Origin: Sphaerotilus hippei
GTDB lineage: Bacteria > Pseudomonadota > Gammaproteobacteria > Burkholderiales > Burkholderiaceae_C
DNA length: 64,000 nucleotides
Assembly: GCF_003201595.1 (NCBI RefSeq)
Contig: NZ_QJJS01000018.1
Location: forward strand, 1 to 64,000
Reading direction: 5' to 3'
The notes below the pieces were generated by a model. The model did no database searches. It worked only from the letters and a program-made list of their open reading frames with translations, and was not told where the DNA came from. Positions 44,268-47,089 of the stretch are shown piece by piece. A program made the translations under genes and the position numbers. Position 1 is the first letter of the stretch. Each line of letters starts with the position of its first letter.

Positions 44268-44324
44268 ATGCGGTGTCATGGCCGAGTTTCCACTATGGTT
44301 TGCGACCATGAATGGAGTGCAGCG

Positions 44325-44423
44325 ATGACCGGATGCCGTGTGTCGAGATCGATCAGGGGCGGGGCTGGAGGCGGGCGTGCCGGTGCGGGCGCCGCTTGCC
44401 TGGCGTCGGCCGGGAGGGCGTGA
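44325..44423 (+). CDS. Possible 32-aa leader peptide
   Basis: ATG at 44325 has GGAG 7 nt upstream and encodes 32 residues (rich in Gly, Ala, Arg, with two Cys). Its stop overlaps the oxidoreductase ATG (TGATG at 44421), so ribosomes ending it could start the next gene. The composition is what GC-rich non-coding DNA gives by chance, so it is a weak call. Confidence 0.25.
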   Translation: MTGCRVSRSIRGGAGGGRAGAGAACLASAGRA

Positions 44424-45439
44424 TGCGGGTGGCCATCGTCGGGGCGGGCGTGGCGGGAGCGGCCTGCGCCGCCGCCCTGGGGCAGGCCGGCTGGACGCCG
44501 ACGCTCTTGGACAAGTCACGCGGGATCGGCGGGCGGCTGTGCACCCGGCGGGCCTCTTGGACCGACGCCGCAGGCGCCCGGCACGACAGCGTGTTCGACC
44601 ATGGCGCGCAGTACTTTACCGCCCGCGATCCCCGTTTTGCCGCCTGCCTCGAGCGGGGCCGGCGCGAGGGCTGGGTCGCGCCGTGGCCGCTGCGGGTGCG
44701 GGCGGCCGATGGCTCGGCTGTGCTCGAGGCCGCCGACGCGCAGGTGGCCGTGCCCGGCATGCCGGCGCTGGTGCGGGCGCTGGCCGACGGGGTGCCGGTG
44801 CAGCTCGGGCAGGCCGTGACGGCGCTGGAGCGGCGGGCGGGCGGCTGGGCCCTGCACCTCGGGCCGGACGAGCCGGTCGCCGACGGCTTCGACGCGGTGG
44901 TGGTGGCCGTGCCGCCGTGGCAGGCGGTGCCGCTGGTGCAGCCGGTGCGGGCCGACTGGGCGCGCCAGCTCGCGGCGATCGACCTGCAGCCCTGCTGGAC
45001 GCTGATGGCCGTGGCGCAGGACCCCGGCGGCGAGGCCGCGCCCTGGGAGGTCGTGCGGCCGGCCCGGGGGCCGCTGAGCTGGATCGCCCGCAACGACCGC
45101 AAGCCGGGGCGCACGGTCGTGCCGGGCCAGGTGCACTGGGTGGCCCAGGCCGATCCGGTCTGGAGCCGGCAGCACCTCGAGCACGATGCGGCCACCGTCG
45201 AGGCCCTGCTGCTGCAGGCGCTGGCTGATCAGGTCGGCGGCACGTCGCCGGTGGTCTGGCTGCACCGGACGGTGCACCGCTGGCGCTACGCGCTGGCGCC
45301 CCGCCGGCCGGCCGGCTCGCCACCGGCCTGGTGGGACGGGCGCAGCGGGCTGGGCGTGTGCGGCGACGGCCTGGGCGGCCCGCGCGTGGAGGCCGCCTTC
45401 CTGTCCGGCCAGGCGATGGCCGAGGCGATGCTGCGCTGA
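44423..45439 (+). CDS. Renalase-like FAD-dependent oxidoreductase
   Basis: 338 aa. Opens with a dinucleotide-binding motif (MRVAIVGAGVAGAACAAAL) and the family's RGIGGRLCTRR and HGAQYFTARD segments; GVCGDGLGGPRVEAAFLSG near the C-terminus is the second FAD-contact site. Bacterial renalases oxidise alpha/beta-anomer errors of NAD(P)H; other family members act on amines. GGGAGGG lies 4 nt before the ATG. First confident gene of the DUF2256-cryptochrome cluster. Confidence 0.85.
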   Translation: MRVAIVGAGVAGAACAAALGQAGWTPTLLDKSRGIGGRLCTRRASWTDAAGARHDSVFDHGAQYFTARDPRFAACLERGRREGWVAPWPLRVRAADGSAVLEAADAQVAVPGMPALVRALADGVPVQLGQAVTALERRAGGWALHLGPDEPVADGFDAVVVAVPPWQAVPLVQPVRADWARQLAAIDLQPCWTLMAVAQDPGGEAAPWEVVRPARGPLSWIARNDRKPGRTVVPGQVHWVAQADPVWSRQHLEHDAATVEALLLQALADQVGGTSPVVWLHRTVHRWRYALAPRRPAGSPPAWWDGRSGLGVCGDGLGGPRVEAAFLSGQAMAEAMLR

Positions 45440-45446
45440 GGTCGAC

Positions 45447-45632
45447 ATGAGCCGTGCGACCGGATTCAAGGGCAACAAGGCCGAGCTGCCCAGCAAACCC
45501 TGCGCGACCTGCGGCCGCCCGATGAGCTGGCGCCGTCGCTGGGCGCGGGTCTGGGACGAGGTGCGCCACTGCTCCGAGGCCTGCCGCCGCCAGCGGGGCG
45601 GATCGGCCCCTGGCGCGGGGGCGCGACCATGA
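45447..45632 (+). CDS. DUF2256 small zinc-finger-like protein
   Basis: 61 aa with the family signature: a CxxC pair (CATCGRPMSWRRRWARVWDEV) followed by CSEAC, four Cys able to hold a metal. DUF2256 genes are often next to photolyase/cryptochrome genes, and here it overlaps the cryptochrome-like gene by 4 nt. Function unknown. Confidence 0.85.
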   Translation: MSRATGFKGNKAELPSKPCATCGRPMSWRRRWARVWDEVRHCSEACRRQRGGSAPGAGARP

Positions 45633-47089
45633 CGCCGGGCACGCCGGACAGGGGGCTGGGCATGGGGACGCTGGACATGGGCATGTCGGTGCGACTGGAG
45701 TCGCTGCGGCATTTCGAGCCGCGCCGGGATGCGGCCTGGCAGCGGCTGCGGGCCGTGCAGCCCGCCGCGTATGCCCGCAGCCGCAACCACCTCGACGGGG
45801 CGGCCACCGGCCTGTCGCCCTACATCACCCATGGGGTGCTGAGCCTGCCCGAGGTGCTCGGGGCCGTGCTGGCCGGGCCGGGTGACGCCGCGCGCCTGGA
45901 GGTGCAGCACAAGCTGGTCTACGAGCTGGGCTGGCGGGCGTATTTCCAGCACGTGCGGGCCCGGCGCGGGGAGGCCATCCTGCAGTCGCTCCACCCCGGC
46001 CTGCTGCCCGATGAGGCCTATGCCCCGCAGGTGCCCGACGACGTGCGGCAGGCGCGCACCGGCGTGCCGGTGATCGACCAGGCGGTGCGCTCGCTCTACG
46101 CCTGCGGCCACCTGCACAACCACGCCCGCCTGTGGCTGGCCAGCTACCTGGTGCACCTGCGCAAGGTGCACTGGCGTGCGGGCGCGGACTGGCTGATCGG
46201 CCACCTGCTCGATGGCGACGTCGCCAGCAACCACCTCAGCTGGCAGTGGGTGGCGGCCACCGGCAGCCACAAGCCTTATCTGTTCAACGCCGACAACGTG
46301 GCCCGTTTCGCGCCGCCGTCGTGGCACAGCCCCGGCACGCCCCTCGACACCGACTACGCCACGCTGGAGGCGGTGGCCCGCGACCGGGCCGCCATGCCGG
46401 TCGTGGCGCCGACGGACGATGGCGTGATCGAGCCGCCCTGTTCCCGGCGGCCACCGCCGCAGGCCGGTTTCACCGCGCTGGCCGACGCCCCGGACCGGCT
46501 GGCGGGCGATCTGGCCGGACGGGACGTCTGGCTGGTCCATCCGTGGTCGCTGGGTCGCCGCCCCGAGGCGCTGCCGGCGCAGGCGGTGCCCGTGGGCGCG
46601 GTCATCGACGAGCTGCACCCGCAGGCCTGGCGCGATGCCCGCTGGGCTTTCGTGGCCGGCCTGATGGAGGAGCTGGGCGCCGCCCGCTGGCACGGATCGG
46701 CCGCCGACTGGTCGGCGGCGCTGCGCACGGCCCGCTCGGTGCACCTGGTCGACGACCTGCACCTGGGGCCTGCCGTGCAGGCGCTGCTGCCGCCCGGACC
46801 CGGCGCGCCGGCGTGGTTCCGCCACGATCCGCCGGCGCTGTTCGCGCCGGTGTCCGCCGATTGCGCCTCGTTCTCGAAGTGGTGGGCGGCCGCCACGCGC
46901 GGACTGCAGCACGCGGCGCAGCTGCCCGGGCTGGCCGCCACCTTCTGCGCCCACGCGGGCGGGCCGAACGTCGACACCACGCTGGCGCTGCCGTTCGATC
47001 AGGTCGACGGGCCCATCGGCAGCGGCCGGGCCACCTGGGCGGCCGATCCGCTCACCGACCGACCCGGTTCACGCCTGCGCCATCGCTGA
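45629..47089 (+). CDS. Cryptochrome/photolyase-like FAD protein with rearranged domains
   Basis: 486 aa. The FAD-binding helical domain is at the N-terminus (about 45-250): GLSPYITHGVLSL, YELGWRAYFQHV, IDQAVRSLYACGHLHNHARLWLASYL split across helices, and the signature GDVASNHLSWQWVAATG at about 196-212. The usual N-terminal alpha/beta antenna domain is absent in front. Instead, residues about 299-450 look like that domain: DVWLVHPWSLG, PVGAVID, an amphipathic WRDARWAFVAGLMEELGA helix, VHLVDD and SFSKWW, in the same order as the photolyase N-terminal domain. ATG 45629 overlaps DUF2256; Met19 is an alternative. Repair or signalling activity cannot be told. Confidence 0.75.
   Translation: MTPGTPDRGLGMGTLDMGMSVRLESLRHFEPRRDAAWQRLRAVQPAAYARSRNHLDGAATGLSPYITHGVLSLPEVLGAVLAGPGDAARLEVQHKLVYELGWRAYFQHVRARRGEAILQSLHPGLLPDEAYAPQVPDDVRQARTGVPVIDQAVRSLYACGHLHNHARLWLASYLVHLRKVHWRAGADWLIGHLLDGDVASNHLSWQWVAATGSHKPYLFNADNVARFAPPSWHSPGTPLDTDYATLEAVARDRAAMPVVAPTDDGVIEPPCSRRPPPQAGFTALADAPDRLAGDLAGRDVWLVHPWSLGRRPEALPAQAVPVGAVIDELHPQAWRDARWAFVAGLMEELGAARWHGSAADWSAALRTARSVHLVDDLHLGPAVQALLPPGPGAPAWFRHDPPALFAPVSADCASFSKWWAAATRGLQHAAQLPGLAATFCAHAGGPNVDTTLALPFDQVDGPIGSGRATWAADPLTDRPGSRLRHR

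Follow-up and report, generated by a model that had tools for sequence, protein, structure and literature searches.

A photolyase-family protein of Sphaerotilus hippei with an inverted order of FAD and alpha/beta domains

Domain order is relevant to the question of how antenna and catalytic domains were brought together in photolyases, and in one gene of the window (the whole stretch of DNA analysed here, 64,000 nucleotides) this order is swapped. The gene is an intact open frame for 486 aa on the forward strand (45629-47089), in which an earlier note on this DNA had seen a circularly permuted cryptochrome/photolyase homologue. Frame and coordinates were confirmed, as was the order of landmarks reported there, namely GDVASNHLSWQWVAATG (residues 196-212) followed by WLVHPWS, PVGAVID, a helix, VHLVDD, and SFSKWW. 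The gene and its parts are:

45629..47089, forward strand: inverted-order photolyase-family gene, 486 aa (open reading frame and translation; 80 fetched relatives)
45701..46378, forward strand: N-terminal FAD/catalytic domain, residues ∼25-250 (PF03441; alignments with photolyases of the PDB)
46229..46231, forward strand: Asn201, aligned with the Asn beside flavin N5 of CPD photolyases; invariant in the 44-sequence alignment A1
46490..46924, forward strand: C-terminal alpha/beta domain, residues ∼288-432 (AlphaFold2 prediction; two-step profile chain, 97.6% each)
46925..47086, forward strand: poorly conserved C-terminal tail (residues 433-486), modelled at pLDDT below 50 from residue ∼445 on

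That the FAD domain comes first, as the earlier note had stated, is clear from both Pfam and the PDB. FAD_binding_7 (PF03441) matched residues 98-224 (E 7.8e-24; 84.6 bits vs a cut-off of 27), and the C-terminal catalytic half of PDB photolyases aligned to residues 31-222 (for the type I photolyase 1tez, residues 207-408 at E 7.7e-19). The catalytic domain starts ∼25 residues from the N-terminus, in the place of the alpha/beta domain of a classical photolyase. The alpha/beta domain that precedes the FAD domain in classical class I enzymes is missing from this end; directly upstream lies a DUF2256 gene.

At its functional positions, the catalytic domain largely has the residues of a CPD photolyase. 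In our reading of the alignment, E99, W102, R103, N164, D195, D197, and N201 were found at catalytic, FAD, and lesion positions, and equivalents of E. coli E274, W277, N341, W359, N378, W382, and W384 are present in the window protein (for aligned columns, we use what we take to be the residue numbering of E. coli photolyase). The column of Asn201 is presumably that of E. coli N378, the neighbour of flavin N5. Residues at catalytic, FAD-contact, and CPD-contact positions are kept across the family. At the position of E. coli M345, the window protein has Leu168, and at least 90% of the family has Met. The classical Trp triad, which we take to be W382, W359, and W306 of the E. coli enzyme, is incomplete: W205 (= W382) and W182 (= W359) are present, and the W306 column holds Leu126; in the inverted types as a whole, Trp is not one of the most frequent residues there. 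The window type conserves two other tryptophans as well, W169 and W188, so that a different electron path is possible. The Trp triad of classical photolyase is also named in PMC13274461. Because the catalytic and lesion residues of CPD photolyases are kept, the identification as a cryptochrome finds no support here. Nonetheless, the missing distal Trp and the Leu at the Met position could mean altered photochemistry, as in a photoreceptor or regulator with true cryptochrome function, that is, a light signaller that would bind FAD but repair no DNA; the retained residues at CPD- and FAD-contact positions argue against such a role, to which the gene context (below) is also relevant.

For the region behind the FAD domain, alignment A1 contained 15 invariant columns (W301, L302, H304, W306, P312, H330, W334, R338, W339, L365, H378, F405, C412, W418, and W419), and tblastn alignments with the 80 retained relatives stop between residues 419 and 484 of the window protein. 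From the 44-row alignment, AlphaFold2 modelled the whole protein with a mean pLDDT of 83.5 and a pTM of 0.82. Residues 281-440 reached pLDDT 83-97 in ten-residue blocks, and the alternation of predicted strands (299-304, 320-326, 352-356, 370-374, and 395-399) and helices (336-348, 358-365, 380-386, and 415-422) is that of a Rossmann-like fold. The same elements were predicted when the C-terminal domain was modelled alone (pLDDT 81, pTM 0.66). The earlier note had staked its claim on a Rossmann-like fold in this region, and AlphaFold2 predicts one at residues ∼288-432. The 54-residue tail behind the domain (window 46925-47086) is mostly of low confidence and, from residue ∼433 on, is absent in most of the alignment rows shown.

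The fold does not by itself identify the domain. Foldseek searches with the whole model returned photolyases and cryptochromes on top (best E 1.2e-8), presumably via the FAD domain, and the C-terminal model alone gave no match under E 0.001. Among the 50 matches listed for the latter were two entries of a Vibrio cholerae (6-4) photolyase (E 0.72 and 0.77; TM 0.40 and 0.38), with TM-scores among the highest listed, yet uninformative by E-value. Pfam produced no match above the curated cut-off for the C-terminal part of the window protein, and none of the PDB sequences compared with the profile of this part scored better than E 0.51. Weak Pfam matches to CATASP (in 4 of the 44 members, E 0.051 at best) and to RecR_C, DUF5953, DUF4170, and Frtz (one member each) were discarded. 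Furthermore, when the window-type C-terminal domain was set directly against the classical N-terminal domains, profile to profile, the match fell short of significance (P 0.07; P 0.057 and 0.1 in earlier comparisons with smaller sets). All of this could be expected of an unrelated alpha/beta domain that merely resembles the antenna domain of photolyases.

Since the direct comparison was not significant, homology of the C-terminal domain rests on an intermediate family, represented by a profile of 12 Fe-S-type inverted photolyase sequences, 11 of which have a CxxC-type cysteine motif. In hhalign, the window type (81 sequences) matched this intermediate profile with a probability of 97.6 (P 3.7e-12) over 130 co-linear columns, and the intermediate profile matched 14 classical N-terminal domains, again with 97.6 (P 4.7e-12), over 132 columns. 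Pooling the window type with the intermediate profile gave P 5.3e-5 against the classical domains. The chain persisted when three Deinococcus rows were left out (97.2 and 96.5), when only split genes were used (96.5 and 96.7), and when three bridging window-type rows were omitted (97.5). The controls were low: against 21 ORF clusters taken as decoys from the flanks, some of which may be no real genes, the window type reached at best P 0.041 over 9 columns; reversed profiles gave P 0.14-0.49; and the best of 50 column-shuffled profiles scored 20.4, vs 76.0 for the real one. The intermediate profile did match decoy cluster 1 (example L075, with PF03441 and PF00875; P 1.5e-6), because this cluster is a genuine photolyase; the window-type C-terminal profile did not match it (P 0.59). 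The number of sequences was critical. With the 44-sequence C-terminal profile, the comparison with the Deinococcus type was not significant (P 0.19), adding six more distant members and one split gene gave P 0.0029, and it took 81 window-type and 12 intermediate sequences to make the match decisive.

Therefore, given the profile chain and the low reversed, shuffled, and decoy controls, the order of the two photolyase domains is truly swapped, as the earlier note had proposed, and the C-terminal domain is, as judged from sequence profiles, a homologue of the classical N-terminal alpha/beta domain via the intermediate Fe-S-type family. An unrelated domain is highly improbable in view of this chain, its robustness to the removal of rows, and the same position behind the FAD domain in those Fe-S-type relatives that join the window type in trees. 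With the class I CPD photolyase PhrB of E. coli, the window protein thus shares two homologous domains, the residues at catalytic positions, and two of three tryptophans; it differs from PhrB in the order of the domains, in the third tryptophan, and in that the catalytic domain of PhrB extends further C-terminally. For other inverted types, the corresponding matches were weaker. The alphaproteobacterial C-terminal part was suggestive when compared with classical domains (P 0.0017) and with the intermediate profile (P 1.3e-4, 53.6%), and that of a Persicobacter protein gave no good match (P 0.14-0.28 vs the inverted sets and 0.043 vs the classical one; at best 0.02 later). Pfam DNA_photolyase was found in the C-terminal part of one of 10 inverted proteins (L141, the only one of two Deinococcus relatives scanned to match; E 7.2e-4) and in two of seven alpha/beta pieces (L182, E 0.02; L177, E 0.099), in all cases under the curated cut-off.

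The swapped order is not confined to the window. At least 587 confirmed matching stretches were found in genome contigs, many of which may cover the FAD half only; the best 80 of these at least 587 were kept as relatives, and in all 80 the matches cross both domains. Most of the 80 come from betaproteobacterial genera or Burkholderiales (some carry broader names, and L036, L046, and L059 name other groups), and their predicted proteins, with start codons chosen by rule, mostly have 384-443 aa, the exceptions being L026 (519 aa, start uncertain), L029 (348 aa), and the frame-disrupted L065. Of 399 genomes from the same order searched by profile, 55 matched at E up to 1e-35, and in 36 of the 399, the window's genome included, the match spans both domains, with one in-frame stop in eight of the 36. 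The earlier note had proposed checking homologues for conservation of the order, and it is indeed kept in the 80 relatives and in these 36 genomes. An assembly or gene-fusion artefact of the window's genome, for which no supporting point was found, has a practically negligible probability, since the frame is intact here and both domains are matched at all 80 loci and in the 36 genomes.

Among 12 further stretches read after the search of the 399 genomes, an Fe-S-type inverted relative came to light. It is fused in G603, G715, and G742, as it is on Deinococcus plasmids; a split form, in which a catalytic ORF is followed by a short alpha/beta ORF, occurs in G504, G540, G637, G609, and G579 of the window's order and in G075 of the same phylum. 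G504 lacks three of the Fe-S cysteines. By eye, L180, L181, L182, L183, L184, and L187 appear to be split inverted photolyases resembling cyanobacterial phr4/phr5, from the window's order and phylum; a further photolyase ORF of the classical type seems to come after those of L181-L183, and a DUF2256-like ORF after that of L180. As to circular permutation, the swapped order asserted by the earlier note is real, but a domain-order swap fits better than a permutation, given that the catalytic domain does not extend as far C-terminally as the classical one and that relatives with split genes exist. Among the papers listed for circular permutation together with photolyase, no title concerned a circularly permuted photolyase. 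Relatives carrying the two domains as separate adjacent ORFs suggest that the inverted arrangement arose by gene fusion. Since split and fused inverted genes are both found within one bacterial order, a direct comparison is possible between the two-gene state, the fused state, and the lack of the Fe-S cysteines.

The earlier note knew of no described cryptochrome with this order, a statement that does not hold for inverted proteins in general. Cyanobacterial Phr4/Phr5 and the fused Phr6 are described as having a 'reverse domain order' (PMC9426592), and NewPHLs or SPLs 'exhibit an inverted domain topology' (PMC13274461). The inverted proteins are reported as CPD photolyases in both papers; in the former, light as opposed to dark made no significant difference to the UV-C protection that Phr4/Phr5 gave E. 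coli, which speaks against simple light-driven repair by this related pair. Thus, the window protein is a member of an already described inverted-order kind, and the swapped order itself is not new. In the picocyanobacterial Phr4/Phr5 and Phr6, as in the window type, the FAD domain comes first and a photolyase alpha/beta domain second, and Phr4/Phr6 resemble the Fe-S-type relatives (fused or as two adjacent ORFs), with which they are equated here by described layout and cysteines. In contrast to Phr4/Phr6, which have four Fe-S cysteines, the window type has none. Of the 12 Fe-S-type rows, 12, 11, 11, and 11 have Cys at the four respective columns, against 0 of 19 window-type rows (as printed), the window protein having V148, H233, a gap, and T237. 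Its C-terminal domain is also more diverged than the Phr4/Phr6-like one.

The window protein also has the layout common to NewPHL and SPL, in which the catalytic domain is N-terminal and a second domain comes after it. The name NewPHL reportedly goes back to Emmerich et al. in 2020, and that of the short photolyase-like proteins, SPL, is said to stem from Xu et al. in 2021. According to papers citing these studies, SPLs, like the window protein, are devoid of an N-terminal alpha/beta domain; they are described there as having no alpha/beta domain, whereas the window protein carries one at its C-terminal end. SPLs are also mentioned in PMC9649867, PMC9178010, and PMC9498864. With NewPHL, the window protein shares the inverted topology, the absence of Fe-S cysteines (reported for Phr7, a NewPHL, in PMC9426592), and two classical tryptophans (a Trp dyad in the Dinoroseobacter NewPHL, according to PMC8948257). 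The C-terminal part of NewPHL is termed Z-domain, and CPD repair in single-stranded DNA is a further trait of NewPHL. The NewPHL members named in these papers are alphaproteobacterial or from Prochlorococcus, whereas the window group is mostly betaproteobacterial. From its host taxa, the alphaproteobacterial inverted type compared here would correspond to the NewPHL of the literature.

These similarities (order, lack of Fe-S cysteines, and two of three classical tryptophans) raise the possibility that the window protein is a NewPHL in the strict sense and closer to the alphaproteobacterial enzymes than to the Phr4/Phr6-like type. Sixty-five FAD domains gave a tree in which the window type and the Fe-S type formed a clade together with one Persicobacter protein (96/81); the alphaproteobacterial type had a clade of its own (98/92), as did the classical enzymes (100/99). 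When long branches were removed (59 rows), the window type and the Fe-S type were again joined (95/90), with a bootstrap that had not fully settled. The window type alone was no single clade in this tree, the Fe-S type falling inside or beside it, and the AU test rejected neither a tree joining the window type with the alphaproteobacterial type (p 0.25) nor one joining it with the classical type (p 0.326). It is thus likely, not proven, that by these sequence comparisons the window type groups, non-exclusively, with the Fe-S (Phr4/Phr6-like) type. Because of this grouping, and as the C-terminal profiles of the window and alphaproteobacterial types did not match (P 0.78), a strict NewPHL is a rather unlikely designation, the AU result notwithstanding.

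Two genes precede the photolyase gene on the same strand:

44312..45439, forward strand: FAD/NAD(P) oxidoreductase ORF (Amino_oxidase, NAD_binding_8; Pfam matches on 44414-45436)
45447..45632, forward strand: DUF2256 gene (Pfam PF10013, E 5.5e-20), the stop of which overlaps the start of the photolyase gene

The overlap amounts to 4 bp (ATGA at 45629-45632), and the oxidoreductase ORF, whose true start may be further in, ends 7 bp before the DUF2256 gene and is likely part of the same operon. DUF2256 was matched once in the window's genome, at this locus, and in two of 14 control genomes (Caulobacter vibrioides and Synechococcus elongatus). As contig ends cut many flanks, counts in the flanks of the 80 relatives are lower bounds. 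DUF2256 was present in at least 33, an oxidoreductase similar to that of the window in at least 12, a second photolyase of classical layout in at least 21 (for example L075, PF00875 then PF03441), and a homologue of the photolyase-related protein of L080 (4380-5963; Pfam PF04244, E 3.9e-68) in at least 37. We take the family of the last protein, DPRP, to be the prokaryotic (6-4), Fe-S photolyase group. Of the 74 relatives with 2 kb or more of upstream sequence, at least 32 have a homologue of the L080 gene immediately before the inverted gene, in the same orientation; in the window's genome, the DPRP-type gene is on a different contig (its product is 65% identical to the L080 protein). Where a DPRP-type gene sits just upstream of the inverted gene, it is often preceded by DUF2256, which gives the appearance of a recurrent photorepair gene cluster.

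The oxidoreductase and DUF2256 neighbours are a functionally uninformative context and would also suit a photoreceptor. However, many relatives adjoin photolyase-related genes and the inverted proteins in the literature are reported as CPD photolyases, so that, together with the retained contact residues, a signalling role appears unlikely. We consider it fairly probable that the window protein is instead a member of the inverted photolyase branch, with the FAD domain first and the alpha/beta domain second, that most likely binds FAD, is photoreduced via W205 and W182, and acts in light-driven CPD repair. FAD would be bound and then photoreduced through these two classical tryptophans, and under blue or UV-A light an electron would be passed to a pyrimidine dimer, which would thereby be split. 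The alpha/beta domain probably packs on its catalytic neighbour, where it may contribute to closing the flavin pocket. In the cell, the inverted protein may act beside the DPRP-family protein encoded elsewhere in the same genome.

More tentatively, and with considerable doubt, the betaproteobacterial-heavy group might be a third, Fe-S-free inverted lineage that descended from a two-gene ancestor and has the DPRP photolyase and DUF2256 as partners in a photorepair cluster. If so, the two-gene ancestor (a catalytic gene and a separate alpha/beta gene) would survive in other families of the same order, and the DUF2256 protein would be an unrecognised accessory of photorepair. In the literature searched, no paper contained both DUF2256 and photolyase. 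Inverted, photolyase-related, and DUF2256 genes are repeatedly adjacent, and DUF2256, a family without known function, thereby gains a partner that can be tested. The photolyase of L075 (7494-9047) and similar genes (L062, L068, L073, and others) are of classical layout and form a long branch in the tree. The window's genome itself contains a further photolyase-like match, on contig 17.
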